Shown here: one piece after another, positions 1,048 through 58,033 of the stretch | Numbering within the stretch: position 1 is the stretch's first letter | Layout: each line of letters starts with the position of its first letter | NCBI GenBank assembly: GCA_009377755.1 | Contig: WHTM01000033.1 | Location: forward strand, 1 to 58,033 | Direction: 5' to 3' | Length of the DNA: 58,033 nt | Source: Hyphomicrobiales bacterium | GTDB taxonomy: Bacteria; Pseudomonadota; Alphaproteobacteria; Rhizobiales; Xanthobacteraceae | The notes under the pieces: model-generated | Seen by the model: the letters and a program-made list of their open reading frames with translations, nothing else | Told to the model about the DNA's origin: nothing | Databases searched by the model: none | Position numbers and translations under genes: made by a program

Positions 1048-1095
1048 GCATGATCCCGAAAAGTGGATACCGGTTTTCGGATAAGATTATGCTCA
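1045..1095. repeat. Palindromic repeat element containing the stop codon of the upstream gene
   Basis: Imperfect inverted repeat with outer arms TGAGCAT (1045-1051) and ATGCTCA (1089-1095) and inner arms CCGAAAA (1056-1062) and TTTTCGG (1074-1080). The TGA stop of the large-subunit gene is the first three bases of the element. Very similar elements are, from memory, abundant in Bradyrhizobium-group genomes. It fills most of the gap before the small-subunit gene and may be transcribed as a hairpin between the two cistrons. Confidence 0.75.
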
Positions 1096-1114
1096 AACGA
1101 AAGAAGACTCTTCC

Positions 1115-1630
1115 ATGCGCAGAATGCTGTTCGAGAATCTGGCGCGTACGCCGCTGACGGAGGCGCCGCCTCCCGCGGACGATGCGGCGTTGGCGGAGCT
1201 AGCCGTGAGCGTCGACTATGCGGCGCGGCGGCGGCTCGGGCGCAGCCTTTCGATCCGTCAGGTGGACGCCGGCTCGTGCAACGGCTGCGAGCTGGAAATC
1301 CACGCGCTCAACAACGCATTCTACGATCTGGAGCGGTTCGGGTTGCATTTCGTCGCGTCGCCGCGCCATGCCGACGTGCTGCTGGTAACCGGTCCGGTCA
1401 CCAGGAACATGCGCGAGGCGCTGGAGCGGACCTACCACGCGACCCCCGACCCGAAATGGGTGGTCGCAGTCGGCGACTGCGCGGCCAATGGCGGGATTTT
1501 CGCAGACAGTTACGCCGTTGTCGGTAGCGTCGGCCAGGTCGTCCCGGTCGACCTGCACATCCGTGGCTGTCCGCCGACGCCGATGCAATTGCTGGCCGGA
1601 CTGCTGGCGCTGCTTGAACCGAAGACCTGA
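1115..1630 (+). CDS. NuoB/HyfI-like [4Fe-4S] small subunit of an Ehr/hydrogenase-4-type complex
   Basis: 171 residues, matching the NuoB/hydrogenase-4 small-subunit family. The cluster-ligand motifs are intact: CNGCE near residues 54-58, GDC in the middle and RGCPP near the C-terminus, which together supply the cysteines for the N2-type [4Fe-4S] cluster. It lies directly behind the large subunit with a repeat between them and is probably cotranscribed. The retained cluster beside a large subunit without the nickel cysteines suggests an electron-transfer complex rather than a hydrogenase. The start at 1115 is the first ATG giving a normal N-terminus; a second ATG three codons later is possible. 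Confidence 0.85.
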   Translation: MRRMLFENLARTPLTEAPPPADDAALAELAVSVDYAARRRLGRSLSIRQVDAGSCNGCELEIHALNNAFYDLERFGLHFVASPRHADVLLVTGPVTRNMREALERTYHATPDPKWVVAVGDCAANGGIFADSYAVVGSVGQVVPVDLHIRGCPPTPMQLLAGLLALLEPKT

Positions 1631-1853
1631 GGACGCCGCTCAGTCGACGATCGCCGCGCCGCGACGTGGACGATGTTGCCCCATTCGTCTCCCACGAGCC
1701 GCGCGCACAAATGACGCATGCGAACGTGCGAATGATGTGTGCGGACAATGCGAGGTGATGCACGTCGGCCGGAGTCGGTGGCGGCGGGGAAGCCGTGGGC
1801 TGGCATTGATCGGCGCCGCCGTGCATCATGGCGGCGGAACGAGGGAGTGACGC

Positions 1854-7057: not shown

Positions 7058-7187
7058 TGGTCGCAGTGCGAATTGGTCCGGTTCTTGCTTTAGCCCGGTT
7101 CGCTCCCGCTGTACACCGGTCCGTGCGGGCAATCGTAAACGGTGTTGATTTCGGGATTATCTCCGGGGTCCGCCGGGACCGGTCGAA

Positions 7188-7973
7188 TCAGAGGCGAAAC
7201 TCCTCGCCGAGGTAGAGCCGGCGAACATCCGGATTGTTGACGATGTCCTCGGCCCGTCCCTCCATCAAGACCTCTCCCGAATAGATGATGTAGGCGCGGT
7301 CGGTCAGGCCCAGCGTTTCGCGGACGTTGTGGTCGGTGATCAGCACCCCGATGCCCCGGTTGGTCAGGTGCCGGACCAGCGCCTGGATGTCGCCGACAGC
7401 GATCGGATCGATCCCGGCGAAGGGCTCATCCAGCAGCACGTAGCTCGGCCGCGTCGCCAGGGCCCGGGCGATCTCCACGCGGCGGCGCTCGCCGCCCGAC
7501 AGCGCAATCGACGGTGTCTTGCGCAGCTGCGCGATGTTGAACTCCTCCAGCAGCGCGTCAAGATCGGCCTCGCGCCGCTGCCGGTTCGGCTCGATGACCT
7601 CCAGCACCGAACGGATATTGTCCTCGACATTAAGGCCGCGGAAGATCGACGCCTCCTGCGGCAGATAACCGATGCCGAGCCGCGCACGCTGGTACATCGG
7701 CAGCCGGGTCACGTCGTAGCCGTCGACCTCGATGCGGCCGCGGTCAGCCTTCACCAACCCGGTGATCATGTAGAACACCGTGGTTTTGCCGGCGCCGTTC
7801 GGTCCGAGCAGGCCGACAACCTCGCCGCGGCGCACGTAGAGGCTGGCGCCTTTCACCACCTTGCGGCGTACGAAGCTCTTCTCCAGCCCGTGGGCGGCGA
7901 GGAAGCCGCCCTGCACGGCGCCCGGCTGGCGGCGGCGGAGTACGGGTTGAGCGGGATGGATCGGCTGGTTCAT
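7188..7973 (-). CDS. lptB: LPS export ABC transporter ATP-binding protein LptB
   Basis: 261 residues: a single ABC ATPase domain with Walker A GPNGAGKTT, Q-loop in YLPQEASIFRGL, signature LSGGERRR and Walker B YVLLDEPFAG followed by the switch histidine in ITDHNVRETL. The C-terminal YSGEVLMEG and YLGEEFRL ending is typical of LptB. With LptF/LptG (not in this window) it powers extraction of lipopolysaccharide from the inner membrane into the LptC-LptA bridge. The order lptC-lptA-lptB-rpoN is the standard one. An N-terminal extension of about 25 residues precedes the domain. Confidence 0.96.
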   Translation of the reverse strand: MNQPIHPAQPVLRRRQPGAVQGGFLAAHGLEKSFVRRKVVKGASLYVRRGEVVGLLGPNGAGKTTVFYMITGLVKADRGRIEVDGYDVTRLPMYQRARLGIGYLPQEASIFRGLNVEDNIRSVLEVIEPNRQRREADLDALLEEFNIAQLRKTPSIALSGGERRRVEIARALATRPSYVLLDEPFAGIDPIAVGDIQALVRHLTNRGIGVLITDHNVRETLGLTDRAYIIYSGEVLMEGRAEDIVNNPDVRRLYLGEEFRL

Positions 7974-31734: not shown

Positions 31735-31775
31735 TGTCCCGAATCCGAAGTTCGCAATACCTCGCATCAGGGGGA
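31732..31775. repeat. Half copy of the TAGTG...GAAGTTCG palindromic repeat
   Basis: The sequence TAGTGTCCCGAATCCGAAGT continuing TCGC starts at the stop codon of the cupin gene. It matches the left arm style of the two complete hairpin elements at 48765 and 48855 (TAGTGCC...GAAGTTC). The matching right arm is not obvious before the next gene at 31787, so this is a partial or decayed copy. Confidence 0.6.
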
Positions 31776-40589: not shown

Positions 40590-41672
40590 ATGTCCGAAAT
40601 TGCGCAACTGGAATCGGAAATTCTCTCCGCCGCGAGCGCCGCCGCCGACGAGGCGGCGCTCGAAGCGGTGCGCGTCGCGGCGTTCGGTAAGAGCGGATCG
40701 ATCTCGGGCCTGCTCAAGACGCTCGGCACGATGTCGCCGGACGAGCGCAAGCTTCAGGGCCCGCTGATCAACGGGTTGAAGGACCGCATGACCGCGGCGA
40801 TCGCCGCGCGCCGGCAGACGCTGGCCGAGGCCGCGCTCGAGCAGCGGCTCAATACCGAGACGCTCGACGTGACGCTGCCGGTGCGCGAGCCGCCCGCCGA
40901 GACCGGCCGCATCCATCCGATCAGCCAGGTCACCGACGAACTCACGGCGATCTTCGCCGACATGGGCTTCGCGGTCGCCGAAGGGCCGGACATCGAGACC
41001 GACGACTACAACTTCACCAAGCTCAATTTTCCCGAGGGGCATCCGGCCCGCGAGATGCACGACACGTTCTATTTCCCGCCCAAGCCGGACGGCTCACGCA
41101 TGTTGCTGCGCACCCACACCTCGCCGGTGCAGATCAGGACCATGCTGGTGCAGAAGCCGCCGATCCGCGTCATCATTCCCGGCCGCACCTATCGCAGCGA
41201 TAGCGACCAGACGCACACGCCGATGTTCCACCAGGTCGAGGGGCTGGTGATCGACAAGACCGCGCACCTCGGTCATCTGAAGTGGATTCTGGAAGAGTTC
41301 TGCAAGGCCTTCTTCGAGGTCGGACAGGTCAAGATGCGGTTTCGTCCGTCGTTCTTCCCGTTCACCGAGCCGTCGCTCGAGGTCGACATCCAGTGCCGCC
41401 GCGACAAGGGCGAGATTCGCTTCGGCGAAGGCGAGGACTGGCTGGAGATTCTCGGCTGCGGCATGGTGCATCCCAACGTGCTGCGCAATTGCGGCCTCGA
41501 TCCGGACGAATACCAAGGCTTCGCCTGGGGGATGGGGATCGACCGCATCGCCATGCTGAAATACGGCATGTCGGACCTGCGGGCATTCTTCGAGGCGGAC
41601 GTGCGCTGGCTCTCGCACTACGGCTTCCGGCCGCTCGATTTCCCGACGCTGGCGGGGGGGTTGAGCCCGTGA
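40590..41672 (+). CDS. pheS: Phenylalanyl-tRNA synthetase alpha subunit
   Basis: 360 residues from the ATG at 40590, the normal length. An N-terminal coiled-coil arm (residues 1-90) is followed by the class II catalytic core. Motif 1 is around [22 protein letters not shown], motif 2 around [27 protein letters not shown] and motif 3 [17 protein letters not shown]. With PheT it charges tRNA-Phe as an alpha2-beta2 enzyme. It appears complete and intact. The partner gene downstream is broken, so a functional beta subunit must come from elsewhere. Confidence 0.97.
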
Positions 41673-41720
41673 GTCGTACATTCCGCTCGATGTATGCGAC
41701 AGGCTCGCCACGCACTCGGT

Positions 41721-41749
41721 CTGTTCCCTCCCCCACAAGGGGGGAACAG
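41721..41749. repeat. Hairpin repeat between pheS and the pheT fragment
   Basis: Arms CTGTTCCC (41721-41728) and GGGAACAG (41742-41749) enclose a further C-run/G-run pair around ACAA. No T-run follows. Such an element between pheS and pheT is not part of a normal tight pheST operon. Confidence 0.6.
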
Positions 41750-41815
41750 GCCTGAGCAAGCGGCATGGGCGGAGAAAACGGAGCAAACGCCGGCCAGCGT
41801 GCGTGGAGGGTCGCC

Positions 41816-42022
41816 ATGAAGTTCACCCTCGCCATGGCTCAAGCAGCATCTCGGCACCGACGGCTCGCTCGACGCGATCGTCGACAAGCTCACCACGATC
41901 GGGCTTGAAGTCGAGGAGCGTCGAGGGCAAGGCGAAACTGTTGGCGCCGTTCAAGGTCGCCTATGTGGTCTCCGCCGGCATGAGGGCGTGTTCGTGCCGC
42001 CCGGCGCCTTCATCCCCGGCAT
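41816..42022 (+). pseudogene. pheT: Degenerate 5' fragment of phenylalanyl-tRNA synthetase beta subunit
   Basis: The stretch can be read as the start of PheT only by changing frame. MKFTLA is followed by one extra base at 41834, then WLKQHLGTDGSLDAIVDKLTT...GLEVEE, another extra base near 41919, then VEGKAKLLAPFKVAYVVSA. The sequence then jumps to AGM(K)GVFVPPGAFIPG with one base missing, which skips about 30 codons of the usual protein (the EQHPNADRL part). After 42022 no PheT similarity is visible, although the normal protein has about 800 residues. GGAGGGTCGCC precedes the ATG. PheT is essential, so either another copy exists or this is an assembly or rearrangement junction. Confidence 0.88.
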
Positions 42023-42382
42023 GGGTGCTTGGGGACGAGCGACTTACGAGGGGCAGCGAAATTTTTGTTGGCGAGCAAGGCGTAGTAGGAGATCACCATT
42101 TCTTGTTGCCACCGATACTGAGAAGTACCTGCTTAAGGCTGGCGAATATCGATTGGAAGTGCTCGCCCTCTTAAGCGAACGATTGCAGTTCCTGCCAAAT
42201 ATTGTACGAATAAAGAAGAATGACTTTGGGAATATTTCGCAGACCAATTGTTTAGCATACGAGGCAGGTACAACGCAGGGCCGGTCGGATGCAACGCCGT
42301 CTGTTCGGCCGTCGTCCGACACCTTGACGAGTTCAATCGGCTGATTCTCCGGTGCGGGGTGCCAAGGGGAGGGTCGGTCCAG
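42023..42382. other. AT-richer segment behind the pheT fragment, no recognised gene
   Basis: The composition drops below the window average at about 42060-42270. The plus-strand frame 41988-42344 is open (with LVATDTEKYLLKAGEYRLEVLALL) but starts inside the pheT fragment and resembles nothing I know. It may be a piece of foreign DNA joined to the broken pheT. GGGGAGGGTC at the end is the ribosome-binding site of the LysR gene. Confidence 0.4.
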
Positions 42383-43342
42383 ATGGGTCAGCGGGGCCAT
42401 GGTCGCATGAACAATATTCCGACCGACTTGCTGCGAACGCTCGTTACCGTGGTCGACCAGCGCAGCTTCACCAAGGCGGCGCAGGTGCTGGGCGTGACCC
42501 AGCCGGCAGTCAGCGCCCAGATCAAGCGCCTGCAGGGCGTCCTCGGCAACGATCTGTTCGATCGGTCAGCTTCCGGACTGAACCTCACGCCGAAGGGCGA
42601 ACTGATCGTCAACTATGCGCGGCGCCTGTTGTCGATCAACGATCTGATCCTGCATGTCGCCGAGCCCAACCCGAGCGCGCAAACGATCCGCGTCGGGGTT
42701 CCGTCGGACTTTCTCGGGGGCAATCTTCCCGCCATTCTCGCCGGCTTTCGTAAGCGGTGGCCCGATTTGCGATTCAACGTCCAGCACGGCGCCTTGGAGC
42801 CGCAGCTGCACGAACTGCGGCAAGGACAACTCGACATTGCGGTTGGGCTGTCCTCCGCCGACCCGAATCCGGAAGCCCGGCACCACTGGGTCGAATCGAT
42901 GGTCTGGTTGCGCGGGCGTGCGACACGGCTCGATCCCGTAGCGCCAGTTCCACTCGTGTCGTTTCGTGAAGATTGCATCTATTACCGCACGGCGGTCACC
43001 GCCTTGAACCAGTCGGGACGCGACAGCGAACTGGTCTTCATTGGGCCGACGATCGTCAGTCTCGCGGCAGCGGTCGGCGCCGGTCTCGGGATCATGGCGC
43101 TGCCGCGAAGCCGCGTCTGGTCGCCGGACCTGATGGTTTGGGATGACGCGCCGCTGCCGAAGTTGCCGGACCTGGCCTGGGGCGTCTATCTGCGCGAAGG
43201 CGGGGAACACGGACCGCTCGAGAATCTCGCCGATTCGATGGCCGCCGAGCTGCATGCCCGGTGCACGATGTCGGTTAAGCAAGCCTCGGGACGAAGCGTG
43301 AAATCCACCGTCGTGATGGCAAGGGCATTGGCGATCAGTTGA
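42383..43342 (+). CDS. LysR-family transcriptional regulator
   Basis: 319 residues from the ATG at 42383, with GGGGAGGG 9 bases upstream; an ATG at 42407 (MNNIPTDLLRTL) is the conserved alternative. A LysR winged helix (TLVTVVDQRSFTKAAQVLGVTQPAVSAQIKRLQ) precedes the periplasmic-binding-protein-like effector domain (RVGVPSDFLGGNLPAILAGF). The effector and targets are unknown. The only neighbour is a NitT/TauT-type binding protein convergently transcribed, overlapping by eight bases. Confidence 0.9.
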   Translation: MGQRGHGRMNNIPTDLLRTLVTVVDQRSFTKAAQVLGVTQPAVSAQIKRLQGVLGNDLFDRSASGLNLTPKGELIVNYARRLLSINDLILHVAEPNPSAQTIRVGVPSDFLGGNLPAILAGFRKRWPDLRFNVQHGALEPQLHELRQGQLDIAVGLSSADPNPEARHHWVESMVWLRGRATRLDPVAPVPLVSFREDCIYYRTAVTALNQSGRDSELVFIGPTIVSLAAAVGAGLGIMALPRSRVWSPDLMVWDDAPLPKLPDLAWGVYLREGGEHGPLENLADSMAAELHARCTMSVKQASGRSVKSTVVMARALAIS

Positions 43343-44360
43343 GCATGCGTTGATCGGCGGGCGGCAACATCGACGCGTCGAAGACCTGCGCGGGCGTGGG
43401 CTTGGCCTTGAACTTGAAAACGAGCGCCTGCTGGTCGATCGCCGCCTGCAGACGCTGCGGGTTGACTCCGCCGTAGCCCTTCGCGCGGACCTCCGGGGTG
43501 AGGATGTTCTCACGGATCGCCATGCGAAGGCGTTCCAATTCGACCTCGGGCTTGGCGAATTCATTGCGTTGAATCACCGACGCGACCGCTGCCGGCGGAT
43601 CGGCGACCGTGTCTTTCAAGCCGCGCAGGAATGCCGAGAGAAAGCCGGAGACAGCCTGCGGATTGTCCGCCGCGAACTTGGTATTGACGATGATCGCGTT
43701 GCCATAGCCCTGTAGGCCGAAGTCGGCCATTCGCCAGACCAGGAGATCGTTGACGGGAACCCCGCGCTCCCGGATGTCGATATATGAGCGAAACGCGAAG
43801 GACGTGATCGCATCGATCTGGCCGGCGGCCAGCATCGGGTCGCGCACCGGGATTCCGACGGTCTCCACTTTTACCTTAGTCGGATCGATGTCGTTGAGCT
43901 TCGCGAACAGCGGCCACTGCGCGCCGCTCGCCGACGCGGCCGGCGCACCGAGCCGTTTGTCTTCCAGGTCCGTGGGGACGGCGAAGCCGCGGCTCTTTCG
44001 CGCGATGATGGCATATGGGGCGAGGTTATAGACGATGAAGATCGGCTTGACCGGAGCGTTTGGATTCTCGTCGCGCCATTGCGTGAGAAGGTTGAGATCG
44101 GCGACACCCATCTGAAACGTCCCGGACGCAACACGAGTGATCGCCTCGAAGGCATTTGACGCCGGCTCGATGCGGACCGTCAGCCCCTCGCGCTGGTAAT
44201 ACCCCTTGTCCTGCGCGACCAGGTACGGCGCCGCCGGCCCCTCGTAGGGGCCATCGAGCGTGAACCTGAGCACGGTTTGCGCCGCGACCGGGTGCGCCAG
44301 CAGCATTACGGCCGTGACGACAAGCCCTGCGCCGATAACGCGGCTGTCACGAAGGGCCAT
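43335..44360 (-). CDS. NitT/TauT-family ABC transporter substrate-binding protein
   Basis: 341 residues from the ATG at 44360, with the strong AAAGGAGGACC site upstream. The signal peptide VIGAGLVVTAVMLLAHPVAAQ is followed by an SsuA/THI5-like fold (GYYQREGLTVRIEPASNAFEAITRVASG). The ligand could be a sulfonate, nitrate, cyanate or pyrimidine-like compound, as the family is broad. The ATPase and permease genes are not adjacent, so this is an orphan component. It faces the LysR gene convergently. Confidence 0.9.
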   Translation of the reverse strand: MALRDSRVIGAGLVVTAVMLLAHPVAAQTVLRFTLDGPYEGPAAPYLVAQDKGYYQREGLTVRIEPASNAFEAITRVASGTFQMGVADLNLLTQWRDENPNAPVKPIFIVYNLAPYAIIARKSRGFAVPTDLEDKRLGAPAASASGAQWPLFAKLNDIDPTKVKVETVGIPVRDPMLAAGQIDAITSFAFRSYIDIRERGVPVNDLLVWRMADFGLQGYGNAIIVNTKFAADNPQAVSGFLSAFLRGLKDTVADPPAAVASVIQRNEFAKPEVELERLRMAIRENILTPEVRAKGYGGVNPQRLQAAIDQQALVFKFKAKPTPAQVFDASMLPPADQRMLN

Positions 44361-44531
44361 CGGTCCTCCTTTCCGGGACCTGCGGGACCGCCCAGCGAAC
44401 GTCACAAAAGATCATGACAATTGAAAGAGCAAGGATGGATTGTGAAGATGCTTTACAGGCTCCCATGACGACGCGAATCCCTGCATGATTGCTATGCCGC
44501 GAACGCTTCAGGTGCCGAAAAGGCTCGAGCC

Positions 44532-47500
44532 ATGACTGTCGCCGCTGATCGCGCCGGCGCTGCCGCGGACCGCCTGCCTGCTTTCCGTGCCCCCTATGCC
44601 GCGCCGGACGAGGAGATCGCCGCCCGCTGGCTCGCCGAGGAGCCACCCGATGCTGCCGGCGAGCAGCGCATCGACGCACTGGCGACGCGTTTGATCGCGG
44701 CGATCCGCTCAAGCTCCGGGGGCATCGGCGGGGTGGAGGATTTCCTCCACGCCTACTCGCTGTCGACGCGTGAAGGCTTGGCGCTGATGGTGCTCGCCGA
44801 GGCGCTCCTGCGCGTTCCTGACGCGGCGACCGCGGATCGTCTGATCGAGGACAAGCTCGCCGCCGGCGACTGGTCGCGCGCACGGTCGCCGACGCTGCTG
44901 GTGTCGGCGTCGGCGTGGACGCTGGGCCTGACGGTGCGGATCATTCATCCTGGCGAAACACCGGAAACCGTGCTCGACAGCCTGGTCAAGCGGCTCGGCC
45001 TGCCGGCGGTGCGTGCGGCCACGCGCCAGGCGATGCGGCTGCTCGGCTCGCATTTCGTCCTCGGCCAGACCATCGAAGAAGCCATCGGCCGCGCGGCCGA
45101 GCATGACGAGGCGCGCATTTCGTTCGACATGCTCGGAGAAGGAGCACGCACGGACGCGGCGGCCGAGCACTATTTCGCGGCCTATGATGCTGCCATCGCG
45201 GCGATTGGCCGCACCGCGGGCAGCCGGGCGCTGCCGGACCGCCCCGGCATTTCGGTCAAGCTGTCGGCCTTGCATCCACGCTACGAAGCGGTATCGCATG
45301 AGCGCGTGCTGGCCGAGCTGGTGCCGCGGCTGCGGATCTTGGTCCGGCGGGCGCGCGACCTCGACCTCAACCTCACCATCGATGCCGAGGAAGCCGATCG
45401 GCTGGAACTGTCGCTTGAGGTGATCGCCGCCGTCCTGCCCGACCCCGCGCTTGCCGGCTGGGACGGCTTCGGGCTTGCGGTGCAAGCCTATGCGAAGCGG
45501 GCGCCGGCGCTGATCGATTGGGCGGAAGCCGCGGCGCGGGCGCTCGGCCGGCGGCTGATGCTGCGGCTGGTCAAGGGCGCCTATTGGGACACCGAGATCA
45601 AGCGGGCGCAGGAGCGGGGCCTCGCCGACTATCCCGTCTTCACCCGCAAGCCGATGACCGACCTTTGCTATATGGCTTGCGTCCGCAAGCTGTTGGCGGC
45701 GCGGCCGGTGATCTATCCGCAGTTCGCCACCCACAACGCGCTTACCGTCGCCAGCGTGATCGAAGCGGCGGGCGGCGTCGAAGGCTTCGAATTCCAGCGG
45801 CTGCACGGCATGGGCGAGGTTCTGTATTCGGCGCTCCGCAGCGAGTGGCCGAATGCGGCCTGTCGCATCTACGCGCCGGTCGGCAGCCATCGCGACCTCC
45901 TCGCCTATCTGGTCCGGCGGCTTCTGGAGAACGGCGCCAACTCGTCGTTTGTATCGGTTGCCGCGGATCCGGCGACACCGATCACGACGCTTCTCGCGCG
46001 ACCGCGTGCGCGGATCGGATCGGCGCAAGCGGCGCGGAATCCGCATATTCCGCTGCCGCGCGACCTCTATCGGCCTGAGCGGCAGAACTCGCGCGGCGTC
46101 GAATTCGGCGATCGCGCGAGCCTCGACGGCTTGCTGGCCGAGGTTCGCAGTGCGTTGCCGCTCCGTGCCGAAGTAGCCCCGCTGGTCGATGGGATTGCGC
46201 TGCGCGGCGTGGAACGCGCGGTGCTCTCACCGATCGATGGAACGGCGATCGGACATGTCACCGAAGGCGATCAGGCGATCGTGTTGTCAGCGATGGCGGC
46301 GGCGCAGGCCGGCTTCTCAGGCTGGTCGGCGACGCCGCGCGAGCAGCGCGCGGCGGCGCTCGAACGGGCCTCCGATCTTCTCGAAGAACGGCGCGGGGGG
46401 CTGATCGCCTTGCTACAGGCCGAAGGCGGCAAGACGTTGGATGATGCCGTATCCGAGGTGCGCGAGGCGGTTGATTTCTGCCGCTACTACGCAGCCCAGG
46501 CGCGCACGTCGTTGGCGCCGCAGGCCTTGCCCGGTCCCACTGGCGAGAGCAACCGGCTCGGCTATCGCGGCCGCGGGGTGTTCGTCTGCATCAGTCCATG
46601 GAACTTCCCGCTGGCGATCTTTCTCGGCCAGATCGCCGCCGCGCTGGTCGCCGGCAACACCGTCGTGGCGAAGCCGGCGGAGCAGACGCCGCTCGTCGCC
46701 TTCGAGGCGATCCGTCTATTGCATCGTGCCGGCGTGCCAGTGAGCGCCTTGCAGCTTGTGCCGGGCGACGGCGCGGTCGGCGCTGCGCTGACCGCTGATC
46801 GCCGCGTCGCGGGTGTCGCCTTCACCGGGTCGACCGAGGTGGCGCGCGCGATCAATCGCAGCCTTGCCGGCCGCGACGGCCCGATCGTTCCGCTGATTGC
46901 TGAGACCGGCGGCATCAATGCCATGATCGTCGACGCCACCGCGTTGCCCGAGCAGGTCACCGACGATGTTCTGACGTCGGCGTTCCGCTCCGCCGGCCAA
47001 CGCTGCTCGGCGTTGCGCCTGCTGTGCCTGCAGGAGGACGTTGCCGACCAGATCCTTGACATGATTGCCGGCGCGGTGCAGGCGCTGCGGCTCGGCGATC
47101 CACGCGACCCGGCGACACACGTCGGTCCGGTGATCGACCTCGAGGCACAGACCCGTCTGCTCGGCTGGATCGATGGAATGGAGGCCCAGGGAAGGGTCCG
47201 TTTCCGTTGGGACCGCGCGGCGGCGTTGCCAGTGTCAGGGCTCTATGTGCCGCCCGCCATCGTCGCGCTCGACCGGGCGCGCGATCTCAAGGAGGAGGTG
47301 TTCGGGCCGATCCTGCACGTGGTACGCTGGCGCGCCGACGAACTCGATATTCTGCTCGACGGGATCGCCGGTAACGGGACGGCGCTCACGCTCGGCATTC
47401 AGTCGCGCATCGATGCCAGGGTGGACCGGATCGCGGCGTGGCTTCCGCATGGAAACGTTTACGTTAACCGAAGCATGATCGGCGCGGTCGTCGGCACCCA

Positions 47501-47666
47501 GCCGTTCGGTGGCTCCGGCCTGTCCGGAACCGGCCCGAAGGCGGGCGGCCCGAATTACCTGCACCGCTTCGTCGTCGAACAAGTGGTAACGGTCAACACC
47601 GCGGCGGCCGGCGGCAATGCGAGCCTGCTCACCGACGATGCCGAGGAGCCCGATCCGGCGGCATAG
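44532..47666 (+). CDS. putA: Bifunctional proline dehydrogenase / glutamate-semialdehyde dehydrogenase
   Basis: 1044 residues. The N-terminal part lacks the ribbon-helix-helix DNA-binding domain of enterobacterial PutA, so it is an enzyme only. The FAD-dependent proline dehydrogenase barrel spans about 60-480 (ISFDMLGEGARTDAAAEHY, VKLSALHPRYE, LVKGAYWDTEIK). The aldehyde dehydrogenase domain spans about 540-1020 with ISPWNFPLAIFLGQ, VAFTGSTEVARAI, IAETGGINAMIV and the catalytic C825 in FRSAGQRCSALR. It oxidises proline to glutamate in two steps with channelled intermediate, passing electrons to the quinone pool and NAD+. No Lrp-type putR is beside it. Confidence 0.96.
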   Translation: MTVAADRAGAAADRLPAFRAPYAAPDEEIAARWLAEEPPDAAGEQRIDALATRLIAAIRSSSGGIGGVEDFLHAYSLSTREGLALMVLAEALLRVPDAATADRLIEDKLAAGDWSRARSPTLLVSASAWTLGLTVRIIHPGETPETVLDSLVKRLGLPAVRAATRQAMRLLGSHFVLGQTIEEAIGRAAEHDEARISFDMLGEGARTDAAAEHYFAAYDAAIAAIGRTAGSRALPDRPGISVKLSALHPRYEAVSHERVLAELVPRLRILVRRARDLDLNLTIDAEEADRLELSLEVIAAVLPDPALAGWDGFGLAVQAYAKRAPALIDWAEAAARALGRRLMLRLVKGAYWDTEIKRAQERGLADYPVFTRKPMTDLCYMACVRKLLAARPVIYPQFATHNALTVASVIEAAGGVEGFEFQRLHGMGEVLYSALRSEWPNAACRIYAPVGSHRDLLAYLVRRLLENGANSSFVSVAADPATPITTLLARPRARIGSAQAARNPHIPLPRDLYRPERQNSRGVEFGDRASLDGLLAEVRSALPLRAEVAPLVDGIALRGVERAVLSPIDGTAIGHVTEGDQAIVLSAMAAAQAGFSGWSATPREQRAAALERASDLLEERRGGLIALLQAEGGKTLDDAVSEVREAVDFCRYYAAQARTSLAPQALPGPTGESNRLGYRGRGVFVCISPWNFPLAIFLGQIAAALVAGNTVVAKPAEQTPLVAFEAIRLLHRAGVPVSALQLVPGDGAVGAALTADRRVAGVAFTGSTEVARAINRSLAGRDGPIVPLIAETGGINAMIVDATALPEQVTDDVLTSAFRSAGQRCSALRLLCLQEDVADQILDMIAGAVQALRLGDPRDPATHVGPVIDLEAQTRLLGWIDGMEAQGRVRFRWDRAAALPVSGLYVPPAIVALDRARDLKEEVFGPILHVVRWRADELDILLDGIAGNGTALTLGIQSRIDARVDRIAAWLPHGNVYVNRSMIGAVVGTQPFGGSGLSGTGPKAGGPNYLHRFVVEQVVTVNTAAAGGNASLLTDDAEEPDPAA

Positions 47667-51867: not shown

Positions 51868-52187
51868 TGTTTACGGCGTCCTCTGGCACCCACGGTTTAG
51901 TCCGGCTTATCTATAGCACCCTCGACCGGACAGTTTTTTGCTTTCTTTTGAGCGCCAGGAAGCGGCGGCAAAATCGGTCAACAGCCTCACGGGCTGTCTG
52001 GGGTCGTCGTCGGTTCCGATAAGTGCCGTTCCCGGCAGCAATCGGCCAGCGTATGGCCGCCACCCACCTTCCTGATGTCTAAAGCCTGAATAGTGATGTC
52101 TGAAACATTAATTTCTAATGTAAAACATTGTATTATGATGTGAAAACCATCATATTTAATAGGCTTTAGAGGAAAGGGATACCCCCG
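51868..52187. other. AT-rich control region of the accessory operon
   Basis: About 320 bases. A weak hairpin GTCCGG...CCGGAC ends at 51931 and is followed by AGTTTTTT, possibly a terminator on the plus strand. From about 52080 the sequence becomes AT-rich, contains two inverted repeats (separate entry), and ends with AGAGGAAAGGG, the ribosome-binding site of the gene at 52188. Confidence 0.45.
52105..52154. promoter_or_regulatory. Inverted repeats in the promoter region of the accessory operon
   Basis: ACATTA-ATTTC-TAATGT at 52105-52121 and TATGATG-TGAAAAC-CATCATA at 52134-52154. Both are in an AT-rich stretch 35-85 bases upstream of the first gene, a small ribbon-helix-helix-like protein that might bind them. 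Confidence 0.5.
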
Positions 52188-52370
52188 ATGCGAAACCAGA
52201 AGCCGATCTCGTTCGTGGTGCCGTCGGCGCTGCACGAAGCGATCGAGCGCGCGGCCGATGCCGAGATGATCTCGGTCTCCTCCTACTGCCGTCGCGCGGT
52301 CCTGCACGAAGCGACCGGGCACGGGTTTGTGAGCCCAGAGAAGGGGACCTCCGAATGCCGGCCGATGTGA
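52188..52370 (+). CDS. Small ribbon-helix-helix-like protein
   Basis: 60 residues. A beta-strand-like start (PISFVVPSALHEAIERAA) followed by two helices (EMISVSSYCRRAVLHEA) fits the Arc/MetJ/CopG ribbon-helix-helix pattern of small DNA-binding proteins. AGAGGAAAGGG precedes the ATG. It is the first gene of a run of small overlapping genes and overlaps the next by 16 bases. It may autoregulate through the inverted repeats just upstream. Confidence 0.6.
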   Translation: MRNQKPISFVVPSALHEAIERAADAEMISVSSYCRRAVLHEATGHGFVSPEKGTSECRPM

Positions 52371-52582
52371 GCACCCCGCTGCGTGCCGATTTGGTCGGCG
52401 ATGAGTGCTTGCGCTGTGGTCCGGTCGCCGTTTTCGGGCCGGTTGGACATTCGAGCGTGCGGACGCTGTGTCAACGGTTGGTCCGCGACGGGCACAGCCC
52501 GGATTTGCGTTTGCATGTTTACCGCGGGGACGCGCTCGTTGAGCGCGTATCGTCGCTTCGTGATGGCTCGACCAGCAATTGA
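52355..52582 (+). CDS. Hypothetical protein of the accessory operon
   Basis: 75 residues without recognisable domain or signal. Two cysteines (ECLRCG) form a CxxC that might bind zinc. GGGGACCTCCG lies before the start and it overlaps the previous gene by 16 bases. No relatives are known to me. Confidence 0.45.
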   Translation: MPADVSTPLRADLVGDECLRCGPVAVFGPVGHSSVRTLCQRLVRDGHSPDLRLHVYRGDALVERVSSLRDGSTSN

Positions 52583-52596
52583 GAAAGGACGTTGAA

Positions 52597-53445
52597 ATGG
52601 CAAAGGTGAAAGAGGATACGGCGACTGACCCGAGCATCGCCGAGTTGGCATCATCGGCAAAAACTGCCGATCAGCATGGCGAAGTCGTGAAAGCGGTCAC
52701 CGCGCTTCTCGATGGCGCAAGGCGTGATCTTGCGGCGTTGGAAAATGGCCGCGAGAGCGTCGTGCTGAGCGGCGGCAATTTGGCGGCGCATTCGCGTTCA
52801 GTCAGTGAGGCCGGCGAGACACTGAAAACATTGACGGCCGCTCGTGCTGCGGCTCAAGAGCGGTATCAGCAAGCCTTACGGTCCGAGCAACGTGTGGCCT
52901 TCGAGCGTGATGCCGCGGCTCTATACGAGCGTGCTGTTCCGGCGCTGACGGATGCGTGGCGCAAGCTGCATGGGCTCCTATCGGAGGTCGAGCAGGTCGG
53001 CGGCGAGATCGAACGGCTGGAGCGCGAGGTTTCCGACTGGAACAGCCGCTGCAGGCAGCATGATCGGCTCGATCTCGTTCAGCGTGTGAGTGGTCCTCGT
53101 GAGCGGGTGGCCGGCGAAATTGGGATCCCGTTCCCGCCTCGGCTGACTCCGGTTCCGGTGCTTATGCCGCGCGAATCCGAAGAGGCATTTGCGCTGCGCG
53201 TATCCAATCATCAATCGCAACGCGCCTGGTCCGGACATGAAGCTGAGCCGTTACGCGTGGCCGGCAAGAAGGCTGTCAAAGTCATTGAGCGGCTGGCGGT
53301 GGCCCATCCTGATCTTCGGGCGCAACTGCGGCTTCGCAGCGGTGAGCGGATCAAGCCCGCGCAGCCGCTGACGTTACCGTTGCCGTCGGCGCCGGAGATC
53401 GACAATGTCGAATCGCTGCCGGTCCGATCCGGGGCCACTTTGTAG
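52597..53445 (+). CDS. Coiled-coil hypothetical protein of the accessory operon
   Basis: 282 residues from the ATG at 52597 (GAAAGGACGTTGAA upstream). Heptad-rich helices span about 15-175 (TALLDGARRDLAALENGRES, LYERAVPALTDAWRKL, IERLEREVSDW), then a proline-rich stretch (FPPRLTPVPVLMPRE) and a basic C-terminal part. No signal or membrane segment is present. Codon use is less GC-biased than in core genes of the window. A structural or nucleic-acid-binding role is possible; nothing points to a known phage protein. Confidence 0.65.
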   Translation: MAKVKEDTATDPSIAELASSAKTADQHGEVVKAVTALLDGARRDLAALENGRESVVLSGGNLAAHSRSVSEAGETLKTLTAARAAAQERYQQALRSEQRVAFERDAAALYERAVPALTDAWRKLHGLLSEVEQVGGEIERLEREVSDWNSRCRQHDRLDLVQRVSGPRERVAGEIGIPFPPRLTPVPVLMPRESEEAFALRVSNHQSQRAWSGHEAEPLRVAGKKAVKVIERLAVAHPDLRAQLRLRSGERIKPAQPLTLPLPSAPEIDNVESLPVRSGATL

Positions 53446-53454
53446 GAGACGATC

Positions 53455-54309
53455 ATGAGCGATGCATTTGCTGCCAACTTGACACCGTCGGCGCCCGCTT
53501 CGGACTCGTCGTCCGGCGCACCGGCTGCACCGACGCCTGCTGCGCCGGTGACGCCTACGCCGGCGGCGCCGGAGCCGGACTCAATGATGGGCCGTATCTT
53601 GGCCGATCCGACTTCGCGGCGGGCTTATGAGAAACTCGCGGGCGAGAAAGCCGAGAAGCTTTCGCGGGTGACGATGCCGACGGCCGAACAGTCTGCCGGT
53701 GTTGATCCGTCCGTCCGGCTTCTGCAGATCGAGAATATCGAGCGGCACGATCATGCGCGGTTCGTGGTGCAGAACCTCGCCGCCGAGAAGGAACAGCTCC
53801 TCGCCAAGCAAGCCGCGGCTCCGCAGGATCAACCGGCGCGTATGCTTTCGGATGCTGATAGCCGCCTCAAGATCGATGCGATGGACGGTTCTGCGCAGTT
53901 ACGTGTTGCCTGGGGCGATCAAGCCGACGCCAACCACGCACGCGCGGTCGAGAGCGCGAAGGATTTCCACACCGAGTCCGGCGCCGAGGCGTCGGAGTTC
54001 TGGGGTGGCTTCAACGCGCTGCCGGGCGACGCGCAATTGGCCGCCTACAGCGCGTTCGGCGAGGTGTTGCCGGAGCGCGGCGTCACGGCTCCGCTTGCGG
54101 CGGTGCAGAGCTGGCAGGCCGATGAACAACTGAAGGGACTGGTCTCCGAGTGGGGTTCGCAGGCACCCGCAAAGATGGCGAGAGTAGCGAGTAGGACGAA
54201 GCGCATGCTCGGCGGCATGTCGCCGTCCAGTACCGACGCGGTGGACGCCTGGTTGGGCGGCATGTCAGAGGCGCAATTTCGCCGGACCGTTCGCAGTCTG
54301 GCGCGGTGA
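53455..54309 (+). CDS. Hypothetical protein with proline/alanine-rich N-terminus
   Basis: 284 residues, starting nine bases after the preceding gene with GTAGGAGACGATC as ribosome-binding site. Residues 10-42 are low-complexity P/A/T/S. The remainder is helical and charged (YEKLAGEKAEKL, LLQIENIERHDHARFVVQNLAAEKEQLLAKQ). It resembles the composition of phage scaffold or head-decoration proteins but without a family match. The function is unknown. Confidence 0.65.
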   Translation: MSDAFAANLTPSAPASDSSSGAPAAPTPAAPVTPTPAAPEPDSMMGRILADPTSRRAYEKLAGEKAEKLSRVTMPTAEQSAGVDPSVRLLQIENIERHDHARFVVQNLAAEKEQLLAKQAAAPQDQPARMLSDADSRLKIDAMDGSAQLRVAWGDQADANHARAVESAKDFHTESGAEASEFWGGFNALPGDAQLAAYSAFGEVLPERGVTAPLAAVQSWQADEQLKGLVSEWGSQAPAKMARVASRTKRMLGGMSPSSTDAVDAWLGGMSEAQFRRTVRSLAR

Positions 54310-54340
54310 CCGCCGGTAATGAATGTTCCCGGAGCCGAAC

Positions 54341-54415
54341 ATGACGCCGACCCTGATGGACTGGTTGATGCTGGGGTCCGCGATCGTGTTCAGCTTCGCG
54401 ATCCTGGTGATGTAG
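54341..54415 (+). CDS. Predicted 24-residue single-pass membrane peptide
   Basis: ATG at 54341 with CCGGAGCCGAAC upstream, encoding MTPTLMDWLMLGSAIVFSF and ending AILVM. Almost the whole peptide is one hydrophobic helix. It sits in the 125-base gap between two accessory genes. A similar hydrophobic mini-gene is found at 55408 in the same region, suggesting that small membrane peptides are a feature of this element. Confidence 0.5.
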   Translation: MTPTLMDWLMLGSAIVFSFAILVM

Positions 54416-54434
54416 TTACACGGCATGAATATAG

Positions 54435-54737
54435 GTGGATAACCCATTGAAGGCACAACCAAAGTCGAGGAAGCCCAGAGTGGTCAAGTCGCTGACGACC
54501 GTGGGCGCGCTGCTGAGCGAAGCAGGGGCTGTCTACCGGGCGATGCGCTATGGCCAGATTGAGCATGACGAGGGTCGATCGCTCGTATGGGTTCTCGCTC
54601 AGATGCGGGCAATGGTCGAGGCGCAAGCGCTCGAACGAATCGAGAAGCGGCTCGACGAGCTGTCCGGTGTAGCCATCGAACGGAGGGCGCCACATGGCAA
54701 CGCCATCGAATATCAGCCGGCTCACCTCCCGCATTGA
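54435..54737 (+). CDS. Hypothetical basic/helical protein, GTG start
   Basis: 100 residues from a GTG at 54435 (VDNPLKAQPKSRKPRVV). The core is helical (TVGALLSEAGAVYRAMRYGQIEHDEGRSLVWVLAQM). It overlaps the next gene by 44 bases. The sequence EHDEGRSLVWVLAQMRAMVEA recalls small phage or plasmid proteins, but no family is assigned. Confidence 0.55.
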   Translation: MDNPLKAQPKSRKPRVVKSLTTVGALLSEAGAVYRAMRYGQIEHDEGRSLVWVLAQMRAMVEAQALERIEKRLDELSGVAIERRAPHGNAIEYQPAHLPH

Positions 54738-55122
54738 CCAGCTTGAGGAGCGGCTCAACGTGCGGCCGGTCGCTTATGTCTGGTACGGCCAGTATGAGAA
54801 TGGCGCGGTCCTGACACCGGAGGCCGCCATCGCCCGCTACGTCGAGCTCAATCCGCAGATGAGGAATGCTCAGTTCGTTACCATACAATGGGCTGATCCA
54901 TCCGACGCGGTCCGCGCCGGGCAGGTCAAGCAAGCGGATGTGGATCGCATGTACGGGGTCCAATCGCAGGCTGATCCGGAGTCCGATGCGCTGGCTGAGC
55001 GGATCAAGGCGCTCTGCGAGAGCGATGGGCCGCTGAGCGACGAGGATGCCGCGCTACTTGATCAGGTACGGCAGGTTCTGCACGAACAAGGGCATGTAGA
55101 TGATGGACCCGAACCTACGTAA
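54694..55122 (+). CDS. Hypothetical protein of the accessory operon
   Basis: 142 residues from the ATG at 54694, preceded by CGGAGGGCGCCAC. It begins with a short coiled coil (NISRLTSRIDQLEERLN) and then a small mixed domain (VAYVWYGQYENGAVLTPEAAIARY) and an acidic C-terminus. Start and stop overlap the neighbouring genes. The function is unknown. Confidence 0.6.
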   Translation: MATPSNISRLTSRIDQLEERLNVRPVAYVWYGQYENGAVLTPEAAIARYVELNPQMRNAQFVTIQWADPSDAVRAGQVKQADVDRMYGVQSQADPESDALAERIKALCESDGPLSDEDAALLDQVRQVLHEQGHVDDGPEPT

Positions 55123-55372
55123 GGCTGTGCGGCAGCTCAGCGCGCGCGAGCGGGAGGAATTGCAGAAGCTTGTCGAGCCGCGGCCGCGGTGTTCGAGGCC
55201 AGGCTTCGACGTCACGCCGCCAGCTTCGGCTTTAGGGCCACAGCCGACAGCGGGCGCATTCGCGGTGAAATGCCATGCGCGCGGGCACGACATTTTCGGC
55301 CGCCCTTTAGCGGGTGTGATGCCTTGGACGACGGTTGAGCCTACAGAAGACCCGCTGGCGGAGTTTGATTGA
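55100..55372 (+). CDS. Hypothetical protein of the accessory operon
   Basis: 90 residues from the ATG at 55100; it overlaps the previous gene by 23 bases. A charged helical start (MMDPNLRKAVRQLSAREREEL) is followed by a proline-rich part with CHARGHDIFG. No family is recognised. Confidence 0.5.
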   Translation: MMDPNLRKAVRQLSAREREELQKLVEPRPRCSRPGFDVTPPASALGPQPTAGAFAVKCHARGHDIFGRPLAGVMPWTTVEPTEDPLAEFD

Positions 55373-55407
55373 TTGAGGGTCGGTAACAGCTCTTCTCGGA
55401 CGCAAAA

Positions 55408-55524
55408 ATGATGCCGATCGGTCATCCTGCGAACGACAATTTACCGTCATTCGTGCCTGGGATCGGCACCGTGCTGGTGCTGGTGGCGCTGTCGATGCTC
55501 GGTCGGCTGCTGGTGGGGCTGTGA
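55408..55524 (+). CDS. Predicted 38-residue single-pass membrane peptide
   Basis: ATG at 55408 (a second ATG follows at once), encoding a polar start of about 16 residues and then one membrane helix, GIGTVLVLVALSMLGRLLVG. The upstream ribosome-binding site is weak (GGACGCAAAA). A third hydrophobic segment, VAAAVLFGVAILLM, can be read at 55573-55620 from a GTG and may be another such peptide. Confidence 0.4.
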   Translation: MMPIGHPANDNLPSFVPGIGTVLVLVALSMLGRLLVGL

Positions 55525-55887
55525 TCCCATGGCACCCAGCCGCCGCCTGAGCCGCCGCGCACCCTCGCCTATGTGCAAGTGGCGGCCGCGGTGCTGTTCG
55601 GCGTCGCCATCCTGCTGATGTAGCCCAACCGCCTTCGTTCTCTCCGCCAACATCCACCGCCGCCACATGACCCAGGGGCAGAGAGCGATGGCCGTGGTCG
55701 TGGTCAAGGCCACTTCTTCCAAAATGAAAAAGAAGTTGGAAGAAAATATGGAAGGAGACCAACCTTCCCCCGCACATATTTCGCGCGCTACCACGGGTTT
55801 GCGGAGTCCGTGCTTGCCGGCGTGCGTTCTCTCGATGCTGCCTCGCCCCGGCGCCGCCGCCACTGACAGTCCGCAGCGAGATGGAAA
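55525..55887. other. Gap with no assigned gene
   Basis: About 360 bases. It includes the possible hydrophobic mini-ORF ending at 55623. A purine-rich patch at 55710-55760 (AAAATGAAAAAGAAGTTGG and following) stands out from the GC-rich surroundings. The overlapping frames of either strand lack any family-like features. Confidence 0.35.
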
Positions 55888-55910
55888 CAACTGGGGAAAT
55901 TCCCCAGTTG
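55888..55910 (-). terminator. Perfect 11-1-11 palindrome behind the toxin-antitoxin genes
   Basis: Arms CAACTGGGGAA and TTCCCCAGTTG around one central base. It begins 35 bases downstream of the antitoxin stop (minus strand). On that strand it is followed by TTTCC, so it could act as a weak terminator; an operator function is also possible because palindromes of this quality often bind Xre-type repressors. Confidence 0.45.
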
Positions 55911-55944
55911 ATGTTGCCTCGCCGCGGCGATCCCGCCCCGGCGC

Positions 55945-56241
55945 TCACGCCGGCTCTAGCGCACGCTGTACGGCTTCGGGTTCCCTATCGATAACCATCA
56001 GCAGCACCCGCGCCGGCCCCTCTGGCGTCTTGCGTTTTTGCTCCCAGTCGCGGAGCGTGCCGGGCTTGATTCCGAAGCGTGCCGCAAACTCGGCTTGGCT
56101 CAAGTCCAGCTTCCTTCGGATTTTCTGGACATTGACATTAGCTGGTACGTGCACCCGATAGGTGCTGGCGTCGGCTTCGCCGCGCGCGAACGCGCGGGCC
56201 TCCTTTGCGGCCGCCATCAGCCGCTGTCCCATCTTGTTCAT
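55945..56241 (-). CDS. Xre-family antitoxin (HigA-like)
   Basis: 98 residues. The helix-turn-helix occupies about 40-80 ([44 protein letters not shown]). The length and position directly behind a RelE-type toxin, with an ATGA overlap (56238-56241), fit the HigBA order in which the toxin comes first. It should bind the toxin and repress the operon at the palindrome at 56625-56645. Confidence 0.88.
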
Positions 56242-56618
56242 CGTGCAGTCCTCCGTTTTAACCTTGTTACTCGTGTGCGCACAAATGCTCTGTAGTCGGT
56301 GGCGATCCCAGCTAGCTCATTCCTCAACTCGTTCCGCGCTGCCTTTGAGAGGTTGTCCAGGTCCCCCTTGCTGAAAAGGGCCAGCAGAAAAACCGGGATG
56401 TCGTCGCCTCCGAAATAGGTGACAACGCGATAGCCGCCACGTTTGCCCTTACCGCGGCCGGCGAAGCGTATCTTCCGCGCTCCGCCAGTTCCCTCCATCA
56501 CATCACCGCATTTTGGGTCGCGGCTGATTGTGGCAACGATTGCAGCTACATCATCATCGGATAGCCCCGCTCCGGATGCGTCGCGCTGGAAGCCTGGGGT
56601 TTCGATGACCGCGTGCAT
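56238..56618 (-). CDS. RelE/HigB-type toxin
   Basis: 126 residues from the ATG at 56618 ([19 protein letters not shown]); the longer frame upstream is not conserved. The fold shows the HigB2-like pattern [48 protein letters not shown], as in ribosome-dependent mRNA interferases. The first gene of a two-gene operon with the Xre antitoxin, its start lies seven bases from a perfect palindrome. No Shine-Dalgarno sequence is visible, so it may be poorly or leaderlessly translated. Confidence 0.88.
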
Positions 56619-56624
56619 GGGGAT

Positions 56625-56645
56625 ATATACGGCGTCGCCGTATAT
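56625..56645. promoter_or_regulatory. Palindromic operator of the HigBA-like operon
   Basis: Perfect 10-1-10 palindrome with arms ATATACGGCG and CGCCGTATAT around T. It lies directly upstream of the toxin start and probably overlaps its promoter (the arms themselves resemble a TATA-like -10). The antitoxin is the obvious candidate repressor. Confidence 0.75.
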
Positions 56646-56710
56646 CAAATCAAGGGGGGGCTGCATAGGAAGGTAATCAGGGCTTCTCGCCGCCTTCGTG
56701 GTCGGCCAGC

Positions 56711-56962
56711 GTGCTTGCGCCAGGTGGCAGCGAGACGGCCAGCGTGATCGACAATTCGGGCAATGGCTTCTCGGGTGGTGGCAGGGGCTCAACCTTAGGG
56801 ATCGCCATCACCGCGAAGGTCGACATGGACGTCGGCCACAGCACCGACCGACACGGTCTCGTTGGCGAGGTGTGGGCGCAGTGCCTCAAGCGGGGCCCGT
56901 CATCCATAGTTTCCGCTGCCGCGTGGGATGTGTACTTGCGGTTCAGCTCAGAGGGTAAGTAG
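56711..56962 (+). CDS. Possible small hypothetical gene
   Basis: 83 residues from the ATG at 56711, with codon use that looks coding (third positions mostly G or C). No ribosome-binding site or family match is evident ([27 protein letters not shown]). An opposite-strand frame over the same bases is also open. It ends just before the candidate structured RNA. Confidence 0.35.
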
Positions 56963-57157
56963 GCCCCACCGCCGGCCGGCACGGGGCCCGCCGGGCAGCT
57001 CGGTGGGGCAGCTAAGACGAAGGCCTCGGTTGATCTCCGAGGCCTTGGCAGCCCCAAGGGGCGAGGCTGGGACCCGATAACCTGGGACCGCCTTAGCCCA
57101 GTAAAGCTCCGAAAGCCGCCGTGTCGCAAGCCCGCCGGGGAAGCTCGGCGGGTTTTT
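56963..57157 (+). ncRNA. Candidate structured RNA ending in an intrinsic terminator
   Basis: Four hairpins follow one another without a gene: GCCCCACCG (56963-56971) with CGGTGGGGC (57001-57009), enclosing CCGGC/GCCGG; AAGGCCTCGG (57020-57029) with CCGAGGCCTT (57037-57046), a perfect 10-bp stem; CAGCC (57049) with GGCTG (57065); and the terminator CCCGCCG/CGGCGGG with TTTTT. No known RNA family is recognised. It could be a small RNA of the accessory element or the tail of a longer transcript. Confidence 0.45.
57131..57157 (+). terminator. Rho-independent terminator
   Basis: CCCGCCG (57131-57137) and CGGCGGG (57146-57152) form a 7-bp stem with an 8-base loop, followed by TTTTT at 57153-57157. 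It would end a plus-strand transcript from the candidate RNA or the small gene at 56711, ten bases before the convergent minus-strand gene stops at 57167. Confidence 0.85.
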
Positions 57158-57166
57158 CGCAGCAGC

Positions 57167-57667
57167 CTATTCCGGATTCTGGCGGGCCTTGCGAGCCTGT
57201 TTTATGAAGGGTCTCCGGGCTTCTCTCGGAAGCTTTGACCAATCGTGCCCCACCGCTTGGGCAGCCTCTCTTGCTTTCCGCCGGACTTCCCTCCGGTCGG
57301 CCTCCGTGGGCTTCGGTTCAGTTCGGCGCTTTTCTATTTCTTGCGTTGCTTGTGTTGGCGCCGCCAGCCGTTCGCCATGTCTCTGAATTAGGCCCTCAGC
57401 CGCCTTAGCAAAGTAAGCGAGACCGGCAGGTAGATTGGCTTCAACTTTCGCGTGGTCGTCCATAACAACAATCGTGCCAGTCACGGACGCGCCGACGACG
57501 TGGACCTTGAAACTGAGCGTGTCTCCGCCTTCGTCCCACGTTGCCTGTTCGAGGTTAGCCACAGCTCCGAACGTCGGCTTAAACTTCGGAATCCCATCAC
57601 TGATCTGGTGCCTTGCCCCAGGTTTCCCGAGCTGGTGCGGAACAATCACACTTATCGTTTTTGACAT
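57167..57667 (-). CDS. Polyhydroxyalkanoic-acid-system (PHA granule-region)-like protein
   Basis: 166 residues from the internal ATG at 57667, which has GGGAAGGTTCTGGG upstream. MSKTISVIVPHQLGKPGARHQ and FGAVANLEQATWDEGGDTLSF match the PHA_gran_rgn type of small proteins found near polyhydroxyalkanoate genes. A charged extension of about 60 residues follows (EADRREVRRKAREAAQAVG, then KLPREARRPFIKQARK). The frame remains open 324 bases upstream, so a longer fused protein starting at 57991 is possible. Finding this domain inside accessory DNA is unexpected. Confidence 0.65.
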   Translation of the reverse strand: MSKTISVIVPHQLGKPGARHQISDGIPKFKPTFGAVANLEQATWDEGGDTLSFKVHVVGASVTGTIVVMDDHAKVEANLPAGLAYFAKAAEGLIQRHGERLAAPTQATQEIEKRRTEPKPTEADRREVRRKAREAAQAVGHDWSKLPREARRPFIKQARKARQNPE

Positions 57668-57991
57668 TCCCAGAACCTTCCCACGGAGCGCGGTGTCAGA
57701 CCTGATCAACTGCCAGCACTTCTTGAGAACCGCGTTTTTTTTCTCGATGAATTTGTCTTGTTCAAGTAGGTCACACCAGCGCTGAACGGTTCGGAGCGCA
57801 AAGGCGTGGGCTTGGCAATAGGCCTCAGCGCCGGGGATCAATGCGCCCGTTCTGGCGCTTTGATTTTTATGTTGCCTGCTTTTCCGGTCGCCGCCCTTCG
57901 GAAACTTTGTCTGGTAGATCTCGGTGCCGTCCGGAATGTGGTTGGGATTGGGCGTGGCGCGATCTCCGGTAACATGAAGGTATCGGGTCAA
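57668..57991 (-). other. In-frame upstream segment resembling a phage ParB/methyltransferase fragment
   Basis: The frame continues from the PHA-like gene up to a TTG at 57991, after a stop codon. It encodes a segment with FPKGGDRKS and, further on, ALRTVQRWCDLLEQDKFIEKKNAVLKKCWQL, patterns I associate with ParB-like or DNA-modification proteins of phages in this order. It is either an N-terminal domain of a fused protein or a leftover of a deleted gene. Confidence 0.4.
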
Positions 57992-58033
57992 GCGGCGAGG
58001 TCAATCGGCTGATCGATGGGCTTGGTGTCGAGC

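Follow-up and report, generated by a model that had tools for sequence, protein, structure and literature searches.

In some bacteria, pheS and pheT lie at separate places in the genome. A search of the literature found no paper on unlinked pheS and pheT. In the staggered-break model of inversion, the stretch at a breakpoint ends up at either border of the block in opposite orientation, and one copy can stay whole while the other decays. Inversions with staggered breaks are described for Drosophila in the available portions of two reports (PMC5080602, PMC6861252). The accessible text on the Bradyrhizobium REP elements Br-REP1 and Br-REP2 presents them as intergenic palindromes (PMC5082802), and a further paper, as far as its accessible text goes, has gene loss in symbionts as its subject (PMC10333215).

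We investigated a split pheST operon in the window, which is the entire contig C64 (58,033 bp) of a draft genome of 5.2 Mb (95 contigs, completeness 95%, reported contamination 1.1%) from an uncultured bacterium, the sole representative of its genus in the comparison set. Among the named loci, those with the most similar pheS were mostly from Hyphomicrobiales bins, including Pseudolabrys, Pseudorhodoplanes and Xanthobacteraceae. As in the bacteria with separate pheS and pheT, the genes for the two enzyme subunits do not lie together; unlike in those bacteria, the cut is recent enough for a pheT stub and three joins to be still readable, and adjacency is the rule in the family. The locus would resemble inversions of the staggered-break model in that a breakpoint stretch is found at both borders in opposite orientation. 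It differs from those described in Drosophila in that the duplication is present at one of two breakpoints, the other having lost its gene, and in that the sequence present twice belongs to a bacterium and is the 5' end of an essential gene. The features around pheS are as follows.

40590-41672, + strand: intact pheS (TIGR00468, 330 bits; Pfam tRNA-synt_2d and Phe_tRNA-synt_N), end A of the cut rplT-pheS/pheT neighbourhood
41673-41815, + strand: pheS-stub spacer of the type that precedes pheT in relatives, with an inverted repeat of the TCCCTCCCCC type at 41718-41752
41816-42022, + strand: pheT stub, the remains of about the first 103 codons, with two bases gained, one base lost and 33 codons lost
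42023-42409, no strand: filler of 387 bases between the stub and the LysR gene, GC 0.54
42410-43342, + strand: LysR-type regulator gene (Pfam LysR_substrate and HTH_1), end F of the cut thiolase/LysR neighbourhood
43335-44405, - strand: NMT1-like substrate-binding protein gene (Pfam NMT1), the ancestral neighbour of LysR
44532-47666, + strand: putA-like proline dehydrogenase / aldehyde dehydrogenase gene (Pfam Pro_dh and Aldedh)

The first-pass annotation had allowed for a second pheS elsewhere; a genome-wide search with the TIGR00468 profile found none, the window copy being the single match. Several relatives, such as L008, carry a spacer similar to 41673-41815, so the stub occupies the old pheT site. 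The earlier description of a frameshifted, internally deleted pheT fragment behind an intact pheS agreed with our alignment, lesion by lesion. The stub aligned from its ATG with codons 1-52 and approximately 86-103 of the complete pheT on contig C69, and it differed from the latter by an extra base at 41834, another near 41919, a gap of 99 nt (33 codons) at about 41973 with CGCCG common to both edges, and the loss of one base near 41983. With a broken frame and about 103 codons, 33 of them missing, it falls short of the length of a functional PheT.

Comparison of the two join zones that hold a pheT start by BLAST gave 85% identity over 163 nt (E 6e-47) and 92% over 48 nt. Over 205 columns the stub and the C69 pheT were 84% identical; in none of the 108 relatives' loci to which 41816-42022 was aligned did the identity of pheT with the stub exceed 79.5%. 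Among the 109 sequences compared it was nearest to the C69 gene, with a sister support of only 0.65. The two share no exact 20-base word. The earlier proposal of genuine decay, made on the basis of several separate lesions, was supported. A 52-residue reading of the stub retained 20 of the 21 positions that are conserved over 90% in 109 loci, indicating that it is a real pheT remnant, the age of which is not dated thereby. Changes between the stub and the C69 pheT fell on 7/69, 10/69 and 16/67 of the first, second and third codon positions, counts that do not separate early from late decay.

A second, complete pheT had been anticipated elsewhere, and one was found. It starts at C69:31512, has 805 codons and no stops, and is the only complete pheT found in the genome. 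It matched TIGR00472 with 688 bits over positions 1-798 of 798, and all five of its domains (tRNA_bind, B3_4, B5, beta-chain CLM and FDX-ACB) exceeded the Pfam cut-off. It is flanked on the left by a TerB-family gene and by an SDR gene of which about the first 26 codons remain, and on the right by the right-hand neighbours found in relatives, amine oxidase among them. Transcription of pheT would now start from the TerB side or from its own promoter, and the PheS and PheT subunits would assemble from separate transcripts. With the operon split in this way, it becomes testable whether PheS and PheT depend on a common transcript. As a separate observation, genes for a beta-helix protein and for a possible peptidoglycan-binding protein lie between pheT and the amine oxidase gene, at about 33980-36100 of C69 (14981-17097 in the numbering of locus L003), and the amine oxidase gene follows pheT directly in some relatives, such as L014 and L018.

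We examined the arrangement of pheS and pheT in relatives. Of 80 named loci, 73 have pheT after pheS, on the same strand and no more than 2.1 kb away, and in the remaining seven the contig ends within about 700 bases of pheS. Of 36 further genome loci, 35 have pheS and pheT adjacent and in one the contig ends; some of these perhaps come from the same organisms as the named loci. These counts cover the most similar loci and are no full census (pheS was found in 284 of 296 family genomes, and eight new loci were kept). The gene order to the left of the window pheS, comprising a glycosyltransferase-like gene, infC, rpmI and rplT (which we take them to be from their proteins), is as in relatives. 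The relatives' order is preserved both to the left of the window pheS and to the right of the C69 pheT, so the operon was cut between these two genes. In one groundwater relative, L005 (JACPOA010000090.1), the contig ends 650 bases after pheS and that stretch (7078-7728) contains no pheT; an endonuclease-like frame was seen there by eye, and spacers this long occur in relatives with pheT, so that this may mean nothing.

Three ancestral neighbourhoods are cut in this genome: rplT-pheS/pheT, TerB-SDR/GATase and thiolase/LysR. The new joins are pheS-stub/LysR on C64, TerB-SDR stub/pheT on C69 and thiolase/GATase on contig C32. These three joins, on three contigs, consume all six cut ends and close one cycle, bearing out the recombination join that the first-pass annotation had considered for this site. 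TerB was found in 17 of the 24 relatives searched; a complete SDR gene stands beside it in 17/17 of these loci, and GATase is in view in 9/17. An orthologue of the SDR remainder was not found in the genome, the best matches being 38-39% identical. The thiolase gene directly precedes LysR in 14 of the 24 relatives' loci examined (4/24 are weak paralogues). On C32, thiolase (84% identical) and GATase (71%) are about 155 bases apart, and the genes of C32 and C64 stand in one row, meeting at thiolase/LysR, in all four relatives mapped. The NMT1-like gene occupies the same place in G223, G262, G318 and G286, and the putA-like gene belongs to the same ancestral neighbourhood as LysR in G223, G318 and G286.

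At their left ends, C64 and C69 share a head-to-head overlap of exactly 111 bp, through which a single reading frame continues.

1-1044, + strand: partial gene for a 49-kDa-type complex I / hydrogenase subunit, the first 111 bp being the overlap with C69

Pfam identified Complex1_49kDa on the window side of this gene and gave no match on the C69 side, where the sequence looks, by eye, like the start of the same kind of subunit. The overlap makes TerB...pheS one block, with pheS and pheT on opposite strands about 72 kb apart. In the relative G239, GATase, TerB, the block, pheS and pheT stand in one uninverted row, and the block is also kept, with rearranged parts, in G033 and G165. Conservation is imperfect: one gene (window ~17.8-18.5 kb) is elsewhere in G033 and G239. 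Approximately 11 kb at the overlap (window 1-1800 plus C69 1-9400) compare with about 1 kb in G239, probably as a result of an insertion here or a loss in G239. An excised circle of the pheT...TerB block was also considered as the origin of C69, whose 172 kb is close to the distance in G165, and was unsupported by gene order.

Relative to the order in relatives, pheT has thus shifted from the pheS side of a retained block to its TerB side and to the opposite strand, as an inversion of the block predicts. The pheS border adjoins LysR, not the SDR-GATase side that a simple inversion would have brought there, so a second event is needed; one inversion leaves both the LysR and the thiolase/GATase joins unexplained. 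We consider the best explanation, and a likely one, to be an inversion of TerB...pheS with a duplicated pheT 5' end, followed by a second rearrangement that reused the break after pheS. The pheST operon would have been cut by inversion of the block (~72 kb here). A clean break through the pheT 5' end would destroy an essential gene, from which we infer that the breaks were staggered or copied, leaving the pheT 5' end at both block borders in opposite orientations. One copy would have stayed whole with the gene body and the copy beside pheS would have decayed; the stub does lie opposite in orientation to the C69 pheT across the block. The second rearrangement would then have put LysR in place of the SDR-GATase side. 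An inversion could account for this step too, provided that thiolase-LysR had the reverse orientation in the ancestor; G231 shows that orientation, and G165, G286 and G033 do not (positions and strands as read by the analyst).

Duplication was seen at the pheT 5' end only, and the SDR breakpoint shows loss without duplication, which counts against a simple staggered-break model. Each step of the favoured sequence is a known kind of event, and genome reshuffling of this kind is common; the place of the break is unusual, and the interest is in a break through the 5' end of an essential gene that leaves a complete copy. Cells should not survive a break at the start of an essential gene in an operon, and the presence of the cut end twice, once whole, suggests a route of survival. 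The locus also offers a readable example of an operon split in which all three joins are known, against a background of adjacency in all 73 scorable named loci.

The pheT 5' end might instead have been duplicated first, by another route, and a clean break between the two copies could have followed. This would produce the same final layout, and the sequence does not order the two events. We regard it as unlikely, because it requires an extra event exactly at the later breakpoint and because two pheT starts were not noticed in any of the relatives compared.

An assembly or binning artefact, in which the joins would stem from chimeric contigs or from a bin that mixes two organisms, has to be weighed for a draft of 95 contigs with the joins spread over three of them. 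The stub and the intact pheT lack a common exact 20-base word, so a join made on them by an assembler is unlikely, and three independent false joins would have had to close one cycle accidentally. The separate lesions in the stub, the finding of a single pheS and a single pheT, and the low reported contamination also speak against an artefact; agreement in tetranucleotide make-up between the parts does so weakly, as a relative agrees nearly as well. These results make an artefact quite improbable.

A move of the block in the same direction, or a large tandem duplication followed by loss of one copy of each part, with the stub as the lost pheT copy, fits the three joins taken alone, and the tandem form would account for the stub with no need of staggered breaks. 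Both readings were compatible with the data up to the discovery of the head-to-head overlap. That overlap gives pheS and pheT opposite strands, an arrangement not produced by a same-direction move, and we hold both forms to be very improbable.

Acquisition of the complete pheT from another lineage, followed by decay of the native copy, is similarly very improbable. The first FastTree runs placed pheS and pheT beside different relatives, and the end branch of pheT was above the median (0.23 vs 0.14). The two trees place the genome among nearly the same relatives (25 shared of 26 and 26) at low resolution, the pheS grouping was not rejected by the pheT data (p-AU 0.63), and the pheT grouping obtained 0.12 from the pheS data in the AU test. 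Trees and AU tests thus gave no firm conflict, at low resolution, and the candidate was set aside. The C69 pheT moreover retains its ancestral right-hand neighbours, and the stub is closer to it than to any other pheT compared.

If the locus order of G033 is that of the ancestor, the three joins would mean a chromosome fission, in which the GATase-to-thiolase block closed into a separate replicon with the thiolase/GATase join on C32 as the seam while the inversion moved pheT out of the operon, and we consider this extremely improbable.

Returning to the favoured inversion and second rearrangement, we examined the joins for repeats. A dispersed palindrome with a unit of about 75 bp, CTAG ends and the core TGTCCCGAATCCGAAGTTCGC was identified. 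Its core occurs at 102 genome sites at up to three mismatches, compared with none for a reversed control, and related palindromes adjoin several copies. Examples of copies are listed here.

Window 31735-31755: palindrome copy
C69:31453: palindrome copy
C32:43062: palindrome copy

Within the approximately 60 bases that separate the SDR stub from pheT is a 52-bp palindrome match with 44 identical positions, which scored 64 compared with at most 25 in 100 shuffles. The palindrome was absent from the remaining two joins. Relatives' loci, 1.88 Mb in all, contained it six times, two of these being one site counted twice, and a variant is present at low number in some relatives. A REP-like site near the thiolase of G223 precedes the gene and is not at the break. 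Like Br-REP1 and Br-REP2, as these are described in the accessible text (PMC5082802), the palindromes are intergenic, number about a hundred or more and vary strongly in number between relatives. They differ from Br-REP1 and Br-REP2 in sequence, in their ~75-bp unit with CTAG ends and in the 52-bp piece at the SDR/pheT join. The 19-base core was not found in the literature searched. The palindrome may have driven the break at SDR/pheT or may have landed there later. If a role of this REP-like palindrome were shown, it would link such repeats to the break-up of operons.

The DNA after the stub had been described as AT-richer and unrelated to pheT, and both points held: the GC content of 42023-42409 (0.54) is lower than that of most of the window, and the stretch showed no relation to pheT. 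Comparison with the relatives' loci gave no convincing match. This filler extends about 25 bases beyond the end given earlier (42382), since LysR begins at 42410. It had no match among plasmids, one weak match among phages (E 0.5) and nothing in the protein database at E <= 10. As regards a transposon or IS at the joins, the one open filler frame tried contained no Pfam family, and the plasmid and phage searches gave no useful match.

At the right end of C64, positions 52000-58033 deviate in composition, with a GC content of 0.617 and a tetranucleotide correlation of 0.95-0.96 with other parts. This end contains a RelE-like gene (56238-56792, - strand) and open frames without a Pfam match, and it may be a mobile element.
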